From Micromonospora terminaliae (lineage in GTDB: Bacteria > Actinomycetota > Actinomycetes > Mycobacteriales > Micromonosporaceae), in contig NZ_CP045309.1 of NCBI RefSeq assembly GCF_009671205.1, forward strand, positions 6,404,001 through 6,468,000: a DNA stretch of 64,000 nt, written 5' to 3'. The position numbers and the translations under genes are program-made. Below the pieces are notes generated by a model. The model was not told the DNA's origin. It ran no database searches and was given only the letters and a program-made list of their open reading frames with translations. Positions 1 to 46,819 of the stretch are shown here, piece after piece; positions within the stretch are counted from its first letter, which is position 1; every line of letters begins with the position of its first letter.

Positions 1-613
1 AGTACATGGTGCCGGGCTCGGCGGGTGCCACGTCCCCGGCGGATGCCACGTCCTCCGCGACCAGCCCGCCGAAGCCGAGCACGCCGGCGTACTCGGGCCC
101 CGGTGCGCTCGGGTCGATCAGCGTGCGGACGGTGGAGCGGATGCCGTCGGCCCCGATCAGCACGTCCGCGTGCGCGGTGCTGCCGTCGGCGAAGACGGCG
201 GTGACCCCGTCACGACCCTCCTCGGCCCCGACGAGGCGCCGACCGTATTCGACCTTCACGCCCTCGGCGAGTGCCTCTGCGGTCAGCGCCCGGTACAGGT
301 CCGCGCGGGCCATCGCGTGGGTGGCGGGCAGCCCCGGGAAGCCGTGGAACTCGCTGAGGCGGTTTCCCGCGCCGTCGGCCATGACCACGCCGGGGACCGC
401 GTGTCCGGCCGCCCGGACCGCCTCCTCGGCCCCGACGATCCGCAGTGCCGCCAGGCCGTTCGGGGCGAGGGTCAGCATCGCGCCGACGCCGTCCGCCCCG
501 CCCGGGTGCGCCTCGTGCACGGTCGCCTCGATGCCCGCCCGGGCCAGCGCCATCGCCGTGACCGTGCCGCCGATGCCGCCGCCGATCACCACTGCCGTTC
601 GCGTCGCGCCCAT
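1..613 (-). CDS. FAD-dependent monooxygenase, C-terminus cut by the window edge
   Basis: This reads leftward off the window, so only about 204 N-terminal residues are visible. The N-terminus carries a Rossmann dinucleotide-binding motif, GGGIGG at residues 11-16 (GxGxxG), and further on the GADGIRSTVR stretch typical of the second FAD-contacting motif of PHBH-type aromatic hydroxylases. The family uses FAD and NAD(P)H to hydroxylate small aromatic substrates or antibiotics such as rifamycins and tetracyclines; the substrate cannot be told here. The ATG at 611-613 is the first good start. The gene is divergent from a PadR regulator whose operator-like repeats lie between them, so it is probably the regulated target. 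That link is inference. Confidence 0.85.
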   Translation of the reverse strand, partial: MGATRTAVVIGGGIGGTVTAMALARAGIEATVHEAHPGGADGVGAMLTLAPNGLAALRIVGAEEAVRAAGHAVPGVVMADGAGNRLSEFHGFPGLPATHAMARADLYRALTAEALAEGVKVEYGRRLVGAEEGRDGVTAVFADGSTAHADVLIGADGIRSTVRTLIDPSAPGPEYAGVLGFGGLVAEDVASAGDVAPAEPGTMY

Positions 614-639
614 CTGCCGCTCCCTTCGATCGAGTAACT

Positions 640-680
640 CTGAGAATAGTCTCAGCGAAACTAGTCCACGTCAACTAGTT
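640..680. promoter_or_regulatory. Operator-like region between FAD monooxygenase and padR
   Basis: Two kinds of dyad symmetry lie in the 90-bp divergent spacer. CTGAGA-ATAG-TCTCAG is a perfect 6-bp inverted repeat at 640-655. ACTAGT occurs twice, at 659-664 and 674-679, the second within the palindrome AACTAGTT (673-680). PadR proteins bind as dimers to such short dyads, usually next to their own promoter. The A/T content is markedly higher than in the flanking genes. No site has been tested; assignment to the adjacent PadR is inference. Confidence 0.5.
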
Positions 681-703
681 CCGTTGGCTCTAGGATCACC
701 GGC

Positions 704-1291
704 ATGGACACCGCTGCCCGGAGCTCGCCGCTCGCCCTGACCGTGCTGGCCCTGCTGCACCACGAGCCGCTGCACCCGTACGGGGTGCAGCGGCTCATCA
801 AGCAGTGGGGCAAGGACCAGGTGGTCAACGTGGGGCAGCGGGCGAGCCTCTACCGGACCATCGAGCGGCTGCACGCCGACGGCCTCATCGCGGTGCGGGA
901 GACGGGGCGGGACCAGGCCTACCCCGAACGCACCGTCTACGAGTTGACCGACGCCGGGCGGCGGGTCGCCCGTACGTGGCTGAGAGCGATGCTGGTCGAG
1001 CCCAAGCAGGAGTTCCCGCAGTTCCCGGCGGCCCTGTCACACCTCGCGATGATCAGCCCGGCGGAGGCGGCGGAGCTGCTGGAGCGGCGTGCCGAACGGA
1101 TTGGGCAGGCCCGGCAGGAGCGGGCCGCCGCGCTGGCGGCCCACGCCGACCTGCCCCGGGTCTTCCACCTCGAGGACGAGCACCTGGACGCGGTGACCGC
1201 CGCCGAGGAACGGTGGTTGCGCTCGGTCGTCGAGGACCTGCGCAGCGGCCGGCTCACCTGGTCGGCGCCCGCCGGTGCCGATCCGGCCTGA
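704..1291 (+). CDS. PadR family transcriptional regulator
   Basis: A 195-residue protein with an N-terminal winged helix-turn-helix at about residues 9-80, including the family-typical stretches LHPYGVQRLI and ASLYRTIERLHADGLI, followed by a helical C-terminal half as in the longer PadR subfamily with a Vir-like dimerisation domain. PadR proteins are mostly repressors that respond to toxic small molecules and control a neighbouring gene. Here the divergent neighbour is an FAD monooxygenase, which fits a detoxification switch. The ATG at 704 follows the operator-like spacer. The ligand is unknown. Confidence 0.9.
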   Translation: MDTAARSSPLALTVLALLHHEPLHPYGVQRLIKQWGKDQVVNVGQRASLYRTIERLHADGLIAVRETGRDQAYPERTVYELTDAGRRVARTWLRAMLVEPKQEFPQFPAALSHLAMISPAEAAELLERRAERIGQARQERAAALAAHADLPRVFHLEDEHLDAVTAAEERWLRSVVEDLRSGRLTWSAPAGADPA

Positions 1292-30066: not shown

Positions 30067-30150
30067 GCCCGGGTGGTGGAACGGCAGACACGGCCGCCTT
30101 AAAAGCGGCTGCCGCAAGGCGTGCGGGTTCGACCCCCGCCCCGGGCACCA
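30067..30150 (+). tRNA. bldA: tRNA-Leu (anticodon UAA), bldA type
   Basis: The acceptor stem GCCCGGG (30067-30073) pairs with CCCGGGC (30140-30146), followed by an encoded ACCA. The anticodon stem GCCGC/GCGGC (30093-30097 and 30105-30109) encloses loop CTTAAAA, placing TAA at 30100-30102. A long variable arm (TGCCGCAAGGCGTGC region) makes it a class II tRNA, and the T-loop GGTTCGA is canonical. A UAA anticodon reads UUA, the rarest leucine codon in such genomes. In Streptomyces this tRNA is BldA, which controls development and antibiotic production. The gene symbol is by homology of anticodon and type. Confidence 0.97.
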
Positions 30151-40117: not shown

Positions 40118-40627
40118 TCAGAGCGAACGGGCGTAGCGGAGCTGGGGTACGACAACCGTGCCGATGAGGTCGTCGCGCTGCCCGCCGGTGGTGGTCCAGC
40201 CGCCCCGCTCGTAGAAGCGGCGGGCCGCCGCGTTGTCCCGCAGCACCCAGAGCACCGCCCGGGACCAGCCGCGGGCCCGCATGGCGTCGAGGGCGTCCAC
40301 CATGAGCGCCCGCCCAGTGCCCCGGCCGCGCTCGGCCGGCTCCAGGTGGATGGCGTTGAGCAGGCCGGTGGCCGGGTCGCCCTCGTCGTCCGGCCCCAGG
40401 TAGCTGAAGCCGACGAGCCGGCCGTCCCGCTCGGCCACGGTCATCCGGTGGTCGGCGCCCTCCCAGGTCACCCGCTCGGTCCAGTACCGGCCCATGGCCT
40501 CCGGGGTCGGGTCCGCCAGCGCCTCCGGCGGCAGGAACGACGCGTACGCCGCGACCCGGGACCGCTGGTGCAGGGCGCCGACGGCCATGAGGTCGGCGCC
40601 GGTGGCGGGACGCAGGGAGACCGTCAC
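40118..40627 (-). CDS. GNAT family N-acetyltransferase
   Basis: 169 residues from a GTG at 40627 that overlaps the rnz stop by 4 bp (GTGA). A single GNAT domain with the acetyl-CoA loop in [12 protein letters not shown] (RxxGxG/A) and the C-terminal [13 protein letters not shown] stretch. The substrate is unknown. It is translationally coupled to RNase Z, which makes a role with RNA or translation conceivable, but nothing in the sequence shows that. Confidence 0.88.
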
Positions 40628-41547
40628 CCGGCCGAGGCTACCCGCCGGGGCGGCACCTGGACGGTCATCAGGTCCTCGGCGATCACCAGCTCACCGGCGA
40701 AGTGGGCGCGGGCCTCGTCGGCGAAGCGGCGCGGGTCCGCGTACCGCTGGGAGAAGTGGGTGAGCACGAGCGTGCGTACCCCCGACTCGGCCGCCACGCG
40801 CGCGGCCTGGGCGGCGGTGAGGTGGCCGACCTCGGCGGCGAGGGCGGCCTCCGACTCCAGGAAGGTCGACTCGATGACCAGCAGGTCGGCGTGCTCGGCC
40901 AGGGCCCACACGGCGTCGCAGAGCCCGGTGTCCATGACGAAGGCGAACCGCTGCCCCGGCCGGGTCACGCTCACCTCGTCCCGGGTGACGCGGCGTCCGC
41001 CCACGTCCAGGTGGCCGTCGCGGAGGAGCTGGCCGACCGCCGGGCCGGCGATGCCGTACGCGGACAGCTTCTCCGGCAGCATCCGGCAGCCGTCCGGCTC
41101 GACGAGCCGGTAGCCGTACGTCTCGATGGGGTGCCGCAGCCGGCGGGCCTCCAGCGTGCCGATGCCCAGCGTGATCCGCTGCCCGTCCGTCTCGATCGGC
41201 TCGACGGCCAGCTCGGCGGTCTCGTAGAAGCTCGACGCGTGGCGCAGCCGGGCGAAGTAGGCGGCGCCCCCGGCGGGGAAGTGCACGGCCACCGGGTGCG
41301 GGACCCGGTCCAGGGAGAGCCGCTGGATCATGCCGGGCAGGCCCAGGCAGTGGTCGCCGTGGAAGTGGGTGACGCAGATCCGGGTCAGGTCGGTGGCGGA
41401 GATCCCGGTGTGCAGCATCTGTCGCTGGCTGCCCTCGCCCGGGTCGAAGAGCAGCACCTCGTCGTCCCAGCGCAGCAGGTAGCCGTTGTGGTTGCGCTGC
41501 CGGGTGGGCGCCTGGCTGGCCGTACCGAGGATCACCAGCTCGCGCAT
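40624..41547 (-). CDS. rnz: Ribonuclease Z (tRNase Z)
   Basis: 307 residues from the ATG at 41545-41547. A metallo-beta-lactamase-fold endonuclease that cuts tRNA precursors after the discriminator base. The zinc motif is HFHGDH (61-66), with further ligands in MDTGLCD and LTHFSQRY. The reading frame stays open for 59 codons upstream of this ATG, up to 41724, through a leader containing a tiny reading frame and hairpins. The 59-codon stretch lacks family similarity, so I treat it as leader. Confidence 0.95.
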
Positions 41548-41677
41548 CGACACGCCGACCCCCCGGATATGAAGCGACCCCCGGGGCTTCCGCGCTCGCG
41601 CGCGGGCCGGCTGGACTGGGCCGGCACCCCGGGGGTCGGGTGGCTGTCGTGGTTTCGCCGCACCGCTGCCACACGGT

Positions 41678-41736
41678 CTCGACGATGGTGCCTGATGCCC
41701 GCCTCGCGGCGGACGGTCTTTCACTGTCGAGGACAG
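41678..41736 (-). promoter_or_regulatory. Possible structured leader RNA upstream of rnz
   Basis: On the minus-strand transcript, just after the stop of the tiny reading frame, are a CTGTC-CTC-GACAG hairpin (41724-41736) and a CCGCC-GCGA-GGCGG hairpin with a GNRA tetraloop (41699-41712). CTCGAC within the first can instead pair with GTCGAG at 41678-41683, enclosing the second. These pairings exclude each other, as in attenuators. No Rfam family is recognised by me. Confidence 0.45.
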
Positions 41737-41739
41737 CGG

Positions 41740-41778
41740 CTAGCGGACAGCCACCTCACGAGTCCGATTGCTATACAA
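41740..41778 (-). CDS. Tiny leader reading frame, MYSNRTREVAVR
   Basis: A TTG-started frame of 12 codons plus TAG encodes (f)MYSNRTREVAVR. It is preceded by AAAGGAGG (41789-41796), inside AAAGGAGGTGGTCC, which matches the 16S rRNA 3' end far better than any other ribosome-binding site in this window, at a 10-base spacing. It ends about 190 bases before the rnz ATG. I believe similar RTREVAV frames occur in other actinobacteria, but that is recollection. It may be a leader peptide or part of a conserved RNA. Confidence 0.55.
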   Translation of the reverse strand: MYSNRTREVAVR

Positions 41779-41883
41779 GTCTGGACCACCTCCTTTCCCG
41801 TGTACCGCCACGCTATCCACATCCCGGTGAGCCCGGCAACGGATTTGGATCACAGGCGGAACGGGAATCGGCGCGCCCCCGGC

Positions 41884-43059
41884 TCAGTCCAGGCCGATGG
41901 GTCCCTCGCGGGGGCCCTCCTCGGAGGCCGGCTGGACGGCCAGCGACGGGAAGTCGGCCAGGTCGCCCTCGGGCTCGGCGTCCCACTCGGGGAAGACCAG
42001 CGGCTTCTGGAGGTAGAGGCAGAGCAGTTGGGCGAGGTGCCGCAGCCCGTCCAGGTGGGTCCGCTCGTGGCCGTGGGTGGCGTCCACGCCGAAACCGAGC
42101 AGCGCCACCCGGGCGTGCGCGCCCGCCTCGACCGCCGCCGCCACGTCCGAGCGGTAGTAGTCGAAGACGTCCCGAACCAGGTGGACGTCGTGCTCCCGGG
42201 CGATGGCGGCGAGGTGCCGGGTGAGGTGGTAGTCGAACGGGCCCACCCCGTCGCCCATGGCGAGCGTGGCGGCATCCTCCCTCGACTGCTGGCCGGGCGC
42301 GACCACCGCGGCGTCCACCGAGACGATCTCCGCGACGTCGGGGTCCAGGCCGTGGCTCGCGCCGTGCCCGATCTCCTCGGTGACCGTGACCAGCAGGTGC
42401 GCGGTGACCGCCGGCGTGACGCCCGCGTCGACCAGCGCCTTGAACGCGGTCAGCACCGCGGCCACGCCGGCCTTGTCGTCCAGGTGCCGGGACTTGACGT
42501 ACCCGCTCGGGGTGATCGTCGGGTTGGCGAGCAGCGCCACGAAGTCCCCGGCGTCGACGCCGAGCGCCCGGAGCCCGGCCTCGTCGGTGACCGGCTCGTC
42601 GACCCGGACCTCGACCAGCTCCCAGCCGACGCCCTGGAGGTCGACGCCCTCGTTGTAGCGGTGCCCGCTGGCCTTCAGCGGCAGCACCTGGCCGGTGACC
42701 ACCCGGTCCAGGTCGTCGGTGAAGATCCGTACGTGGGCGCCCTCGGCGAAGCGGGCGCTGTGCGTGCCGATCGGCTTCACCTCCAGCCGGCCGTTGTCCT
42801 TGAGCCGCTTCACCATGCCGCCGATGGTGTCGGTGTGCACCACGACGGCCCGGTCGGCGCCGGTCGACCGCGGCCCGGGCAGGCTGGCGCTCAGCGCACC
42901 GCGCCGGGTCAGCGTCGAGGTGATGCCGAGCGCCGAGAGCCGCTCGCCGACGTACTGCTGCACGTGGTCGGTACGCCCCGACGGGCTGGGGATCTCCAGC
43001 AGCTCGACCAGCACCTGGCGCAGGTAGTCGAGGTCCAGCTCCAGCGGCTTCGGGCTCAC
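41884..43059 (-). CDS. NAGGN-system M42 family peptidase
   Basis: 391 residues from a GTG at 43057-43059 that overlaps the ngg stop (GTGA). M42 peptidases are dinuclear zinc aminopeptidases; ligand regions are visible as VVHTDTIGGM, SRHLDDKAG, and TVTEEIGHG. In the gene clusters for the osmoprotectant N-acetylglutaminylglutamine amide (NAGGN), a dedicated M42 peptidase accompanies the two biosynthetic genes, probably for turnover. The three-gene order asnO-ngg-M42 here is complete. The protein is cytoplasmic, with no signal peptide. Confidence 0.92.
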   Translation of the reverse strand: MSPKPLELDLDYLRQVLVELLEIPSPSGRTDHVQQYVGERLSALGITSTLTRRGALSASLPGPRSTGADRAVVVHTDTIGGMVKRLKDNGRLEVKPIGTHSARFAEGAHVRIFTDDLDRVVTGQVLPLKASGHRYNEGVDLQGVGWELVEVRVDEPVTDEAGLRALGVDAGDFVALLANPTITPSGYVKSRHLDDKAGVAAVLTAFKALVDAGVTPAVTAHLLVTVTEEIGHGASHGLDPDVAEIVSVDAAVVAPGQQSREDAATLAMGDGVGPFDYHLTRHLAAIAREHDVHLVRDVFDYYRSDVAAAVEAGAHARVALLGFGVDATHGHERTHLDGLRHLAQLLCLYLQKPLVFPEWDAEPEGDLADFPSLAVQPASEEGPREGPIGLD

Positions 43060-44882
43060 GCGGCCCCTCCCGCGCCGGCCGGCGACCACAGCCGCTGCGG
43101 TGCCCGGGTGCCGGGGAAGAGCAGGTCGACGAAGCGTTCGGCGGTCGGCTGCGGCTCGTGGTTGGCCAGGCCGGGCCGCTCGTTCGCCTCGATGAACACG
43201 TGCTCCGGCCGGTTGGCGGCGGGTACCAGCAGGTCCAGCCCGGTGACCGGGATGTCCAGCGCCCGGCTGGCCGTCACGCACGCCTCGGCGATGGCCGGGT
43301 GCAGCACGGCGGTCACGTCGTGGATGGTGCCCCCGGTGTGCAGGTTGGCGGTCCGGCGGACGGCCAGGACCTGCCCCTCGGGGAGCACGTCGTGCATGTG
43401 GTGGCCGGCCTCGGCCACCACCTCGCGGGTCATGTCGTCGATCGGGATGCGGGACTCGCCGCCGGTGGCGGCGGCGCGGCGGCGGCTCTGCCGCTCGATC
43501 AGCTCGGTGACGTCGTGCACCCCGTCCCCGGTGATCTGCGCGGGCCGGCGGACCGCCGCGGCCACCACCTCGTGGTCGATGACGACCACCCGCAGGTCCT
43601 CACCCTCCCGAAGCTCCTCGATCAGCACGTCCGGGCAGAACCGGCGGGCCAGCTCGACCGCGGCGGTCAGCGCCTCCGGCGTGCGTACCCCGACGGTGAT
43701 GCCGTTGCCCTGCTCGCCCCGGGCCGGCTTGACCACCACCGGGCCGACGTCGGCCAGGAACGCCAGGTCGTCGGCGTCGCCGGTGGCGGTGCGGCCGTGC
43801 GGCACGGACAGGCCCGCCTCGGTGAGGATGCGCCGGGTGACCCGCTTGTCGTCGCAGCGGCTCATCGCCACGGCCGAGGTCAGCTCGGACAGCGACTCGC
43901 GGGTGTGCACCGTCCGGCCGCCGATGCTCAGCCGCAGCTCACCCCAGCGCGGATCGGTCACCTCGACGCGGATGCCGCGCCGCATCGCCTCGTCCGCGAC
44001 GATCTTCGCGTACGGGTTCAGCTCGTCGTACCCCTCCGGCATGGCGGGCAGGAACAGCCGCTCGTTGATCGGGTTCTTCCGCTTCACGCAGAGCGTCCCC
44101 GTGCGGTGGAAGCCGAGCCGCTCGTAGAGGCGGATCGCGCCCGAGTTCTCGGCCAGCACCGACAGGTCCACGTACGCCCGGCCGCGCGCGTCGAGACGGT
44201 CGGCCAGCGCGGTGAGCAGGGCCTGACCGGTGCCGGGCGGCGCCGTGTTGAAGTCCACGGTCAGGCACCAGAGGCTGGCGCCGTTCTCCGGGTCGCCGAA
44301 GACCGCCACGTGGTCCACGCCGGTGATGGTGCCCACCACCTCGCCGGTGGCGTCCTCCGCGACCAGGTGCAGGAACCGGTCGGTGGCCGCGTTGTCGACC
44401 AGCACCTCCACGGGCGCCGTGACCATGCCGTTGCGGGCGTAGATGCGGTTCACCGCGTCCGCGTCGCCGGCGTCGCGCAGCGGCCGGACGCTCAGTCCGG
44501 GGATCTCACCGCCCTCGGTGGCGGCGGGCCGGTGCTCGCCCAGGGGCAGCCGGTAGGTCAGCGACGGGTCGATGAACAGCTCGTCGGGGAGGCGGGAGAC
44601 CAGCACGTGCGGGTCGCGCAAGTAGATGCAGATGTCCCGGGCGCCGACCGCCTCGGAACGCAGCACGTCGGCGACCTCGACCTGCTCGGCGAAGGTCTGC
44701 CCGAAGACCAGCCGGCCCCAGCCGCAGTCCAGCACCACGCCGGACGCGTCGGCGGAGCGGCGGTCGGGCTCGGGGACGCCGGGGGCCACCGGGTCGCCGC
44801 CCGGGCCGACCCGTTCCCGGCGCCGGCCCAGCACCCGTTCCCGGTCGGTCGGTGCGGTTCCGGTCGCGAGGGTGTCGGTCAC
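43056..44882 (-). CDS. ngg: N-acetylglutaminylglutamine synthetase (GNAT plus ATP-grasp)
   Basis: 608 residues from a GTG at 44880-44882. After an N-terminal region (about 1-110) there is a GNAT domain (about 115-280; LSVRPLRDAGDADAVNRIY, YERLGFHRTGTL) and an ATP-grasp domain (about 330-600; VVVKPARGEQGNGI, LIEELREGEDLRVVVI, FIEANERPGL). One enzyme thus can acetylate glutamine and ligate a second glutamine, making N-acetylglutaminylglutamine. It lies 2 bp after asnO and overlaps the M42 gene, so the three genes form one transcript. Confidence 0.94.
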   Translation of the reverse strand: MTDTLATGTAPTDRERVLGRRRERVGPGGDPVAPGVPEPDRRSADASGVVLDCGWGRLVFGQTFAEQVEVADVLRSEAVGARDICIYLRDPHVLVSRLPDELFIDPSLTYRLPLGEHRPAATEGGEIPGLSVRPLRDAGDADAVNRIYARNGMVTAPVEVLVDNAATDRFLHLVAEDATGEVVGTITGVDHVAVFGDPENGASLWCLTVDFNTAPPGTGQALLTALADRLDARGRAYVDLSVLAENSGAIRLYERLGFHRTGTLCVKRKNPINERLFLPAMPEGYDELNPYAKIVADEAMRRGIRVEVTDPRWGELRLSIGGRTVHTRESLSELTSAVAMSRCDDKRVTRRILTEAGLSVPHGRTATGDADDLAFLADVGPVVVKPARGEQGNGITVGVRTPEALTAAVELARRFCPDVLIEELREGEDLRVVVIDHEVVAAAVRRPAQITGDGVHDVTELIERQSRRRAAATGGESRIPIDDMTREVVAEAGHHMHDVLPEGQVLAVRRTANLHTGGTIHDVTAVLHPAIAEACVTASRALDIPVTGLDLLVPAANRPEHVFIEANERPGLANHEPQPTAERFVDLLFPGTRAPQRLWSPAGAGGAA

Positions 44883-44884
44883 GG

Positions 44885-46669
44885 TCAGTCGATTCCGTGG
44901 CTCTGGAGCCACATTTCCAGGAGTCCCAGCTGCCACAGCTTGTTTCCGTTCAACGGGGTCAGTTCGGCGTTCGGGTCGGCGAGCAGCGCGTCGACGTAGT
45001 CGGCGCGGAACAGGTCGCGGCGGCGCGCCTCGGGGGCGGTGAGCGCGTCGCGTACCCGGTCGAGGAGCTTGTCCTCCAGGTGGGTGAGACCCGGCACGGG
45101 GAAGTAGCCCTTCGGCCGGTCGATGACCTCGTGCGGCAGGACCCGCCGGCCGATCTCCTTGAGCACGCCCTTGCCGCCCTGGGCCAGCTTCAGCTCCGGC
45201 GGGCAGCTCGCGGCCAGCTCGACGAACTCGTGGTCGAGGAACGGCACCCGGGCCTCCAGCCCGTGCGCCATGGTCATGTTGTCGACCCGCTTGACCGGGT
45301 CGTCGGTGAGCATGACCTGGGTGTCGATGCGCAGGCCGGCGTCCACGGCGGTCTGCGCCCCCGGCCGGCCGAGGTGCGCCGCCACGAACTCCCGCGCCGG
45401 GTCGCCGTCGGCCAGCCACGCGGGGTTGAGCACCCGGGCCAGGCCGGCCGCGTCGCGGTCGAAGAACGCCTTCGCGTACGTCTCCAGCGCCCGGTCCCGG
45501 TCGGCGCCGGCCAGCGGCGGGTACCAGTGGTAGCCGCCCAGGATCTCGTCCGCGCCCTGGCCGGACTGGACCACCTTGACGTGCCGGGCGACCTCCTGGC
45601 TGAGCAGCCAGAACGCGACGCAGTCGTGGCTGACCATGGGCTCGCTCATGGCGGCGACGGCGGCCTCCAGCGGCGGCAGCAGGTCGCCGGTGGGCACCCG
45701 GATCTGGTGGTGGTCGGTGCCGAAGGTCTTCGCGACCAGGTCGGAGTAGACGAACTCGTCGCCCTCCCGGCCGCCCACCGCGTCGAAGCCGATGGAGAAG
45801 GTGGCCAGCCCGGACTGCCCCTCGCCGGCCAGCAGCGCGACCACGAGGCTGGAGTCGAGCCCGCCGGAGAGCAGCACGCCCACCGGCACGTCGGCCACCA
45901 TCCGGCGGCGGACGGCGGTGGTCAGCGACTCCAGAAGCGCGTCCTGCCAGTCCCGCTCGGACCAGCCGGCCCGCTCGGCGGCGCGGGTGAAGGACGGGTC
46001 CCAGTAGACCCGGTCACGGCTCGTGCCGTCCGGCTCGTACACCCGGACCGTGGCCGGGGGGAGCTTGGCGACGCCGCGCAGGATGGTCCGCGGCGGCGGC
46101 ACGATGCTGTGGAAGCTCAGGTAGTGGGCGAGGGCCACCGGGTCGATGCCGGTGTCGACGCCACCGCCGGCGAGCAGCGCCGGCAGGGTCGAGGCGAAGC
46201 GCACCACGCCGGGGCTCTCGGCCAGGTAGAGCGGCTTGATGCCGAGCCGGTCCCGGGCCAGCACCAGGCGGCCGGTGTCCCGCTCGCTGATCGCCACCGC
46301 GAACATGCCGACGAGGTGGTCGACGAAGTCGGGGCCCCACTCGGCGTACGCCTTGACGACGACCTCGCTGTCGCCGGAGGAGAAGAAGCGGTGTCCCCTG
46401 GCCTGCAACTCCTCGCGCAGCTCGCGGTAGTTGTAGATGCAGCCGTTGAAGACGCCCGTGAGCCCGGCGGCCGGATCGACCAGTGGCTGGCCGCTGGCGG
46501 CCGAGAGGTCGATGATCTTCAGGCGGCGGTGGCCGAGGGCGACCGGCCCCTGTGACCAGACCCCGCTGTCGTCCGGGCCCCGGTCGCTCATGGTGGCCGC
46601 CATCCGCTCCACCGCCGCGACGTCGGCCCGCGATCCGTCCCGCCGGAACTCTCCTGCCAGTCCGCACAT
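44885..46669 (-). CDS. asnO: N-acetylglutaminylglutamine amidotransferase (asparagine-synthetase-like)
   Basis: 594 residues. The ATG at 46667-46669 places the essential nucleophile at Cys2 (MCGLAGEF); a start three codons upstream would block it. The glutaminase domain spans about 1-210 and the synthetase domain carries the ATP loop SGGLDSS at 268-274. In asparagine-synthetase B-type proteins linked to ngg, the enzyme amidates N-acetylglutaminylglutamine to the osmolyte NAGGN. The gene leads the operon; its 203-bp upstream spacer would carry any osmotic-stress promoter. Confidence 0.94.
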   Translation of the reverse strand: MCGLAGEFRRDGSRADVAAVERMAATMSDRGPDDSGVWSQGPVALGHRRLKIIDLSAASGQPLVDPAAGLTGVFNGCIYNYRELREELQARGHRFFSSGDSEVVVKAYAEWGPDFVDHLVGMFAVAISERDTGRLVLARDRLGIKPLYLAESPGVVRFASTLPALLAGGGVDTGIDPVALAHYLSFHSIVPPPRTILRGVAKLPPATVRVYEPDGTSRDRVYWDPSFTRAAERAGWSERDWQDALLESLTTAVRRRMVADVPVGVLLSGGLDSSLVVALLAGEGQSGLATFSIGFDAVGGREGDEFVYSDLVAKTFGTDHHQIRVPTGDLLPPLEAAVAAMSEPMVSHDCVAFWLLSQEVARHVKVVQSGQGADEILGGYHWYPPLAGADRDRALETYAKAFFDRDAAGLARVLNPAWLADGDPAREFVAAHLGRPGAQTAVDAGLRIDTQVMLTDDPVKRVDNMTMAHGLEARVPFLDHEFVELAASCPPELKLAQGGKGVLKEIGRRVLPHEVIDRPKGYFPVPGLTHLEDKLLDRVRDALTAPEARRRDLFRADYVDALLADPNAELTPLNGNKLWQLGLLEMWLQSHGID

Positions 46670-46819
46670 GCCAGGCAATGCTGCCAGAGCCCGTTACGGT
46701 TCGCCTGTTGAGCTGATGTCGGGGGCGTTACGTCTTTGCTAGGATGCGCGCCCACTTCGAAGCGACCGCTGGCCTCGGTGAAGATCCGGTGGCCGGGCGG
46801 GCCGGGTGACCGAATCGGG

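Follow-up and report, generated by a model that had tools for sequence, protein, structure and literature searches.

In attenuators and leader peptides of the trp, erm and whiB7 types, translation of a short reading frame decides which RNA helices form. In the repY/repZ system of plasmid ColIb-P9, ribosome passage over a short leader frame controls a long-range kissing contact, and this contact switches on the downstream gene. The usual Shine-Dalgarno pairing needs 5–6 nt. For Staphylococcus aureus, the abstract of PMC13009471 describes an extended Shine-Dalgarno sequence as an initiation feature of the species, and SgrS/SgrT and SR1/SR1P appear in PMC11133741 as dual-function sRNAs, structured or regulatory RNAs that are also translated into functional peptides.

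The RNA considered here, Ms_IGR-5 (Rfam RF02471), resembles the attenuators in that its short frame holds strands of three helices, termed P0, PK1 and P2, whose formation should be incompatible with translation; unlike attenuators, it lacks a constant downstream gene, and its encoded amino acids carry no sign of selection. Its likeness to the ColIb-P9 pseudoknot lies in what would be a frame-gated kissing contact, although Ms_IGR-5 stands alone. It shares with S. aureus a ribosome-binding site that is longer than usual, whereas the 16-nt match in Ms_IGR-5 belongs to one RNA and contains the only mismatch-free AAAGGAGGTGRTYC outside the 16S genes of the M. terminaliae genome. Unlike the peptides of SgrS/SgrT and SR1/SR1P, the peptide of Ms_IGR-5 looks neutral.

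Rfam assigns RF02471, an actinobacterial family, to the type 'Gene; sRNA'. Ms_IGR-5 is reported as an RNA-seq-supported transcript in S. lividans (PMC8079986) and an sRNA transcription unit in S. avermitilis (PMC8780764), and the M. smegmatis RNA is listed as ncMSMEG15794c (PMC10454040), so that separate small-RNA expression is reported for both Streptomyces and M. smegmatis. PMC4974804 reports that ribosome reads fall on MS_IGR-5 in both M. abscessus and M. smegmatis; because it also reports ribosome footprints on many noncoding RNAs, these reads do not prove translation. The excerpts of open-licence literature found on Ms_IGR-5 mention neither the frame nor the helices and state no function, and those reached through the neighbouring genes of M. 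tuberculosis and S. coelicolor, or contained in PMC4633059 and PMC9094748, yielded nothing on it. PMC11133741 mentions a smORF in the 5′UTR of Rv0813c, which is not known to be related to Ms_IGR-5. The text string RTREVAV had no match in the open-licence literature, and PMC3828370, considered as the origin of the name, contains no IGR-5.

The Ms_IGR-5 locus upstream of rnz

The window, by which we mean the whole 64,000-nt stretch of Micromonospora terminaliae DNA that was analysed, contains one RF02471 element, located between an M42 peptidase gene (TIGR03106, NAGGN osmolyte system) and rnz. A preliminary description of this DNA, made from its letters alone, had pointed to a 336-bp gap upstream of rnz that holds a ribosome-binding site, a tiny frame and hairpins; the gap has that length, with the rnz ATG at 41547, and the site, frame and hairpins all fall within the RF02471 match. 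The principal features are as follows.

41810–41839, minus strand: promoter-like hexamers TTGCCG (41839–41834) and TAGCGT (41815–41810) with an 18-nt spacer, just 5′ of the RNA
41803–41569, minus strand: whole RNA element, Rfam RF02471 (Ms_IGR-5), 235 nt, 90.2 bits by cmscan
41783–41798, minus strand: extended Shine-Dalgarno sequence GGAAAGGAGGTGGTCC, 16 nt long, complementary to the whole 16S rRNA tail GGATCACCTCCTTTCT
41778–41740, minus strand: mini-ORF TTG..TAG of 12 codons, LYSNRTREVAVR; a 12-codon frame is found in 194 of 241 elements
40624–41547, minus strand: rnz (ribonuclease Z), downstream in the Micromonospora lineage, ATG at 41547; NF000805, 536.7 bits against a cut-off of 416

The score of the window copy is twice the RF02471 gathering score of 45, and a covariance-model search found it to be the single copy in the 6.74-Mb genome. 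It has the same 5′ motif and the same 3′ hairpin as the Rfam model. The first helix of the printed model pairs the ribosome-binding site with GCUGCC; the frame, the 16S-tail complement, P0, P2 and PK1 are absent from it.

The promoter hexamers are candidates, because a strict consensus scan of the window finds no promoter at RF02471; in 152 upstream stretches there is a weak excess of T/TTG around −36 to −34 and of TA around −13/−12. No terminator-like site was found by scan at the 3′ hairpin, which lacks a T-run in the window copy. Read-through into rnz, which starts 21 nt beyond the 3′ end of the element, is possible because of this missing T-run, and the hairpin (41576–41637, minus strand) might either end the transcript or be read through in Micromonosporaceae. 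Upstream of the element, at 41884–46678 (minus strand), the genes resemble a NAGGN osmolyte cluster, with the M42 peptidase (TIGR03106) and, by eye, a long GNAT/ATP-grasp-like ORF and an asparagine-synthase-like ORF. A tRNA gene at 30067–30147 (plus strand) is the sole other Rfam match in the window at gathering score.

Distribution of the element and the sets compared

The Rfam model has matches in 57 of 296 Actinomycetota genomes and in 249 of 394 genomes of the window's own class (E ≤ 0.001), nearly always one per genome (two in class genomes G366 and G612), and in no genome of a control set of 14. Scanning named genomes with a pattern recovered at least 120 stretches in many actinobacterial genera; a model search then covered 100 of 120 pattern loci, the 20 left out being mostly mycobacterial, with L104 and L125 among them. 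Four sets were used for comparison: A1, a MAFFT alignment of 46 class elements; A2, 100 elements (99 distinct) aligned to a sequence-only model and hence unfitted to any helix; A3, 31 deep-branching elements, from which the covariance model R2 was built; and A4, 36 elements found later with R2. R2 finds the element in 114 of 296 phylum genomes, as against 57 with the Rfam model, in a count that has rough E-values, no control genomes alongside it and no strict superset relation to the Rfam matches (at least that in G182 is lost). L153 was dropped from the parsed sets, since a coding stretch had been parsed, and its true element was found by model; L241, a partial match, and L001, a duplicate of the window, were also dropped.

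The motif occurs on two contigs labelled as non-actinobacterial MAGs (Zixibacteria and Spirochaetia), L104 at 603–757 (plus strand) and L125 at 1228–1276 (minus strand), which could reflect mis-binning or true spread. L104 scores 55.9 bits with RF02471; L125 has a 14-codon frame and, by eye, the complementary strands, and no Rfam match at gathering score. A blastn search against phages returned no copy of the element, and seven viral pattern matches look like chance, none showing the remaining element by eye.

Complementarity to the 16S rRNA tail

The preliminary description had called the ribosome-binding site near-perfectly complementary to the 16S rRNA 3′ end, and the present comparison bears this out. 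The sequence AAAGGAGGTGGTCC at 41783–41796 (minus strand) extends in the 5′ direction to GGAAAGGAGGTGGTCC at 41783–41798, and all 16 of its nucleotides, two of them in G-U pairs, pair with the tail GGATCACCTCCTTTCT in which both 16S genes read in this genome terminate. Within the genome, AAAGGAGGTGRTYC occurs without mismatch at three sites, namely the two antisense 16S 3′ ends and the RF02471 site, and with one mismatch at one further site. These four matches at up to one mismatch compare with five for a backward-pattern control, so that rarity in a single genome is no proof by itself, and the argument for a 16S-tail site is the comparison between genomes.

Among 153 distinct model-found elements, 140 pair with all 16 nt of the tail, 12 with 15 nt and one with 12 nt, the letters GGnGGnG being given rather than tested in this count, as they served to locate the site. 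Nearly all substitutions in the site keep the pairing, with A or G opposite a 16S U and C or T opposite a 16S G, and the mismatches lie at the outermost position in 11 of the 153 and at each of two other positions in one. When pattern-found elements are added, pairing extends over the full 16 nt in 226 of 256 distinct elements; this set is biased because the search pattern fixed part of the site.

A short frame with a conserved start and stop

The TTG, 11 further codons and stop of the preliminary description are indeed present at 41778–41740 on the minus strand, and a comparable frame accompanies the site in nearly all relatives. It has 9–16 codons and opens with ATG, GTG, TTG, CTG, ATT or ATC 4–14 nt after GGAGG in 119 of 122 model-found elements; taking the best start, 76 of the 122 have 12 codons, 20 have 14 and 11 have 13. 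The three exceptions are L023, without a standard start, L231, with ATA only, and L182, in which the stop is lost. (In L182 the conserved TAG reads TGG and the frame continues to 17 codons, the sole such case in the 122.) Loci fetched after the rule had been formed contained the frame in 40 of 40 cases.

When model-found and pattern-found elements are taken together, 194 of 241 have exactly 12 codons, with a site-to-start distance of 10–13 nt (once 8). The 152 distinct 12-codon frames start with TTG (70), ATG (60), GTG (20) or ATT (2) and end with TAG (131), TAA (12) or TGA (9). In 126 of 152 elements an ATG, GTG or TTG shares the frame of the conserved stop, where shuffling of the stretch from site to hexamer alone would leave 18.9; with CTG, ATT and ATC added, the figures are 145 of 152 and 33.7. 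These counts are left uncorrected, although five of the seven listed failures (L222, L224, L236, L237 and L302) were scored against a wrong stop.

No sign was found of synonymous conservation of the 12 codons, which the preliminary description had named as a supporting feature. Distinct single-base codon changes between near neighbours comprise 18 synonymous and 51 nonsynonymous ones, where 17.0 and 52.0 are expected. Because 54 of the 69 changes fall in codons 2–4, with codons 8 and 9 hardly varying, this ratio speaks mainly for codons 2–4; for codons 5–11 the case against a selected peptide rests instead on the helices and on a change of reading frame. The latter is seen among nine compact loci (L222, L224, L236, L237, L243, L244, L300, L301 and L302, of families f21, f52, f68 and f114), which have a frame of 10–12 codons. 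In eight of them the motif that reads GAG GTG GCT elsewhere is read GGA GGT GGC or GGA GGT GAC, and in L301 a diverged motif gives VGGGS; all nine retain a frame that runs to the CTAG stop, and their peptide is wholly different. In some of the compact loci there is a short 3′ hairpin with a T-rich stretch after it.

Frames similar to RTREVAV, which the preliminary description had suggested for other actinobacteria, occur within the class, where RTREVA-like peptides are found and a TREVA-like core is present in most members; the deep families have GTLEVTGR-, VTVEVMRR- and TSGGGSS-like peptides. Neither the codon changes nor the nine deep loci reveal conservation of amino acids, and the peptide sequence itself is probably irrelevant, at least as judged from these alignments.

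Helices that tie the frame into the fold

The elements of the fold, all on the minus strand, are listed here in their order along the RNA.

41799–41802, minus strand: P0 5′ arm CACG at the RNA 5′ end, which pairs with 41757–41760 in the predicted fold and covaries
41783–41786, minus strand: P1 5′ strand GTCC, the 3′-terminal four letters of the ribosome-binding site and an alternative partner of the GGAC of PK1 (predicted fold)
41762–41765, minus strand: PK1 5′ strand GGAC, ORF codons 5–6; all 98 A2 sequences with letters there pair at 4 positions
41757–41760, minus strand: P0 3′ arm CGTG, ORF codons 7–8 (predicted fold, covariation)
41746–41755, minus strand: P2 5′ arm GGTGGCTGTC, ORF codons 8–11; about 95% of cells paired, compensatory changes, predicted fold
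41656–41745, minus strand: P3 hairpin, lineage-variable, which starts from codon 12 and covers the stop codon (predicted fold)
41658–41651, minus strand: conserved stretch GCGAAACC, which overlaps the AAACCAC bulge (conserved A1 columns)
41649–41655, minus strand: bulge AAACCAC between P3 and P2, unpaired in the predicted fold
41639–41648, minus strand: P2 3′ arm GACAGCCACC (comparative pairing, predicted fold)
41576–41637, minus strand: 3′ hairpin T, with outer stem 41627–41637/41576–41586 and inner hairpin 41606–41625 bearing the PK1 loop
41613–41616, minus strand: PK1 3′ strand GTCC, carried by the loop of hairpin T (comparative pairing)

From 5′ to 3′, the P0 arm, the 16S-tail site, the start and the variable codons 2–4 are thus followed by the PK1, P0 and P2 strands within the frame, by the stop in the foot of P3, by P3 itself and the bulge, and by the P2 partner and the T hairpin with its PK1 loop. 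The hairpins that the preliminary description had placed after the frame agree with a predicted fold of the window RNA that beats 200 of 200 shuffles (z −4.8) and that, for this RNA alone, contains P0, P1, P2, P3 and T.

In the helix-blind alignment A2, the pooled cells of PK1, P2 and the outer stem of T are paired in 97.2%, as against 35–47% when the strands are slid, and 219 cells are changed on both sides, where the shuffled mean is 70.7. The named structure is paired in 92.1% of A1 cells, the weak inner hairpin of T (67.1%) included; over A1, A2 and A3, 91–97% of cells are paired unslid and 33–52% in the slid controls. The T outer stem has 97.6% of its cells paired and 10 of its 11 pairs changed on both sides in both A1 and A2. 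For P2 the corresponding figures are 95.7% of A2 and 95.2% of A1 cells, with 2 of 10 pairs changed on both sides in A2 and 5 of 10 in A1. The helix shuffles used here ignore the relatedness of the sequences, and the pair or pair-type counts do not exceed them in the tests of P1 (A2), PK1 (A2) and P0 (A1).

P0, which joins the RNA 5′ end to the codon before GAG, was first seen in the A3 consensus structure, where 31 of 31 sequences pair at four positions and three of the four pairs are changed on both sides. It is weaker within the class, being paired in 83.3% of A1 cells, with three of five pairs changed on both sides and the fifth pair poor, and 75 of 99 A2 sequences pair at 4/4 as parsed, gapped 5′ ends being scored as failures. 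In A4, 35 of 36 pair at 4/4 in nine fully paired combinations that range from CCAG/CTGG to CAAC/GTTG; the discovery of A4 and its P0 are not fully independent, because R2 contains P0 and P2, PK1 being absent from it.

PK1 has only one changed cell in A1; in A2, 13 cells change from C-G to U-A together. Its fifth position, the third base of codon 6, pairs in 70 and fails to pair in 28 of 98 A2 sequences, with 32 cells changed on both sides, and a sixth pair fails in 57 of 98. Of the 123 distinct combinations that one PK1 position shows over A1–A4, 121 are Watson-Crick, and they include four pair types; the shuffled mean is 98.1, and none of 1000 shuffles reached the observed value, the variation coming from A3 and A4. 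The flanking positions do not exceed shuffles consistently: h5:n-1 was reached by 157 of 1000 in A4 and 949 in A3, and h0:n2 by 72 (A4) and 221 (A1). In a test on single sequences, at most 5 of 100 shuffles were as good as PK1 in only 4 of 39 new loci, a helix of this length being too short for such a test to inform.

P1, in which the end of the ribosome-binding site takes up the GGAC of PK1, is paired in 98.7% of A2 cells. Both sides have changed in 13 cells, and at the position that covaries 5 of 99 sequences do not pair. As both of its strands are pinned by other partners, these figures are only suggestive of a rival helix for GGAC. A start-codon hairpin inside P1, also considered, is unsupported (230 segments, mean z −0.24, 60% below zero).

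Rfam's first helix, in which GGUGGU of the site pairs with GCUGCC, can form in 91.8% of A2 cells, but no pair is changed on both sides in the 99 distinct A2 sequences, equal to shuffles. This zero covariation calls the Rfam helix into question, not the membership of the window copy, and points to a fault in the annotation model. On the comparative evidence, by contrast, P0, P2 and PK1 are three covarying helices with one strand each in codons 5–11, absent from the printed Rfam model; covarying pairs, which the preliminary description had proposed to look for with a covariance model, are thus present in all three. Site and frame are retained in the compact loci, as are, judged by eye, P0 and P2, and in eight of these loci (L301 left out) no PK1 loop was recognised by eye, which suggests that site, frame, P0 and P2 form the core of the element.

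Other pairings of the preliminary description fared less well. The hairpin with a GNRA loop, taken as CCGCC-GCGA-GGCGG, exists in the window and is peculiar to some copies: among 12 related elements inspected by eye, L139 has TTTT at this place, and L010, L122, L152 and L155 are without this hairpin. CTGTC-CTC-GACAG and CTCGAC/GTCGAG had been proposed as mutually exclusive pairings of a switch. In the same 12 elements, the former is intact in eight, disrupted in three (L071, L058 and L161) and lost along with its whole surroundings in L142, whereas at least 5 bp of the latter, which lies within P3 of the predicted fold, remain in 11, the exception being L142. As the two are not conserved alternatives, this switch was rejected.

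Gene context

Of 174 parsed loci, 148 have a gene with relatives in other loci. Downstream, the nearest such gene is convergent in 73 of the 148 and co-directional in 55, and 20 have none in the stretch; these strands and distances are rough, because stop-to-stop ORFs with relatives elsewhere were used. Mycobacterial loci have an aminotransferase IV gene upstream and a convergent THAP4-heme-binding protein gene downstream; Streptomyces loci have a PAS protein gene upstream, with PdxH and citrate synthase genes downstream; and other loci are flanked by genes for an ABC transporter, NhaA, Fpg, dihydroorotate dehydrogenase or an M24 peptidase. Seven loci have an rnz-like gene on the downstream side. 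No single same-strand gene is conserved downstream of the element across the 148 loci, whose neighbours belong to different gene families.

Discussion

At the level of sequence, comparison between genomes shows a complement of the 16S tail followed by a short frame, mostly of 12 codons, whose start and stop are conserved, and it shows the second half of this frame doubling as one strand each of P0, PK1 and P2. On balance we favor the interpretation that Ms_IGR-5 is a free-standing, ribosome-operated RNA switch. A 30S subunit would be caught by the 16-nt site, and initiation would often take place at a weak start codon. In crossing codons 5–11, the ribosome would have to break PK1, P0 and P2; because these codons are unreadable while the three helices are formed, the geometry implies that translation and the closed fold exclude each other. 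In elements inspected by eye, only a few nucleotides separate the P2 arm from the stop that follows it, so that a ribosome terminating there should also hold P2 open. Without a ribosome, the RNA would fold closed, and its fold state would report recent translation. PK1, with the site free, and P1, with the site half covered, may be two resting states, for which there is less support. The likeliest output would be that the freed strands (the P2 3′ arm, the PK1 loop and the GAAUCC-type bulge) act on another RNA or protein, or govern the stability or decay of the RNA itself.

The extent of the pairing could also mean that the RNA mainly sequesters 30S subunits or free 16S tails, the frame and weak start serving only to release the subunit and the structure to protect the RNA. 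The pairing with the entire tail in most distinct elements, a length of 16 nt that exceeds the usual need and the many TTG, GTG, CTG, ATT or ATC starts would all fit such a decoy, which nevertheless leaves unexplained why a frame with a fixed stop is kept and why helices run through it; we regard it as unlikely. An ordinary base-pairing sRNA, with an incidental ribosome contact and a frame that is a by-product of the motif, would agree with the Rfam type and with the separate transcript found in several species. It is difficult to reconcile with the starts, which lie outside the paired motif at a varying distance from the site and yet stay in frame with the stop far more often than expected (126 of 152 against 18.9), and it has very little to recommend it.

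The preliminary description had read the locus as a translated leader coupled to an RNA switch, which might tune tRNase Z, or else as a free-standing micropeptide or RNA. Its coupling of frame and structure survives in P0, P2 and PK1, while the leader part finds no constant downstream gene. Control in cis of the downstream gene (rnz in the Micromonospora lineage) by a leader or attenuator would be in keeping with the short distance to rnz, with possible read-through and with the seven rnz-like neighbors; since neighbors vary by lineage and about half are convergent, a general role as rnz leader is rejected, and we consider control of the downstream gene to be a very improbable function of the family, although the element could have been co-opted as an rnz leader in one lineage. 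A functional micropeptide of about 10–15 residues would account for the conserved start and stop and for the TREVA-like core of most class members, but the neutral ratio (mostly from codons 2–4), the change of frame and peptides as different as RTREVAVR, VTVEVMRR and TSGGGSS argue against it, and the helices account for the residues that are conserved; it is likewise highly improbable as the product.

Beyond the Rfam model, our comparison adds the frame, the 16S-tail complement, P0, P2 and PK1, and an apparently unselected peptide. We propose, more tentatively than the switch itself, that Ms_IGR-5 may serve across the phylum as a stand-alone ribosome sensor, in which the ribosome unzips the RNA, the peptide is disposable and the output acts in trans. 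Such a sensor would gauge free, initiating or terminating ribosomes, and the product of its gene would be the act of being translated, neither a peptide nor simply an RNA. Translation of the element looks obligatory while its peptide seems irrelevant, which separates being translated from encoding something. If this proposal is correct, Ms_IGR-5 would give a molecular handle on ribosome monitoring in the actinobacteria, a group that includes antibiotic producers and the mycobacteria.
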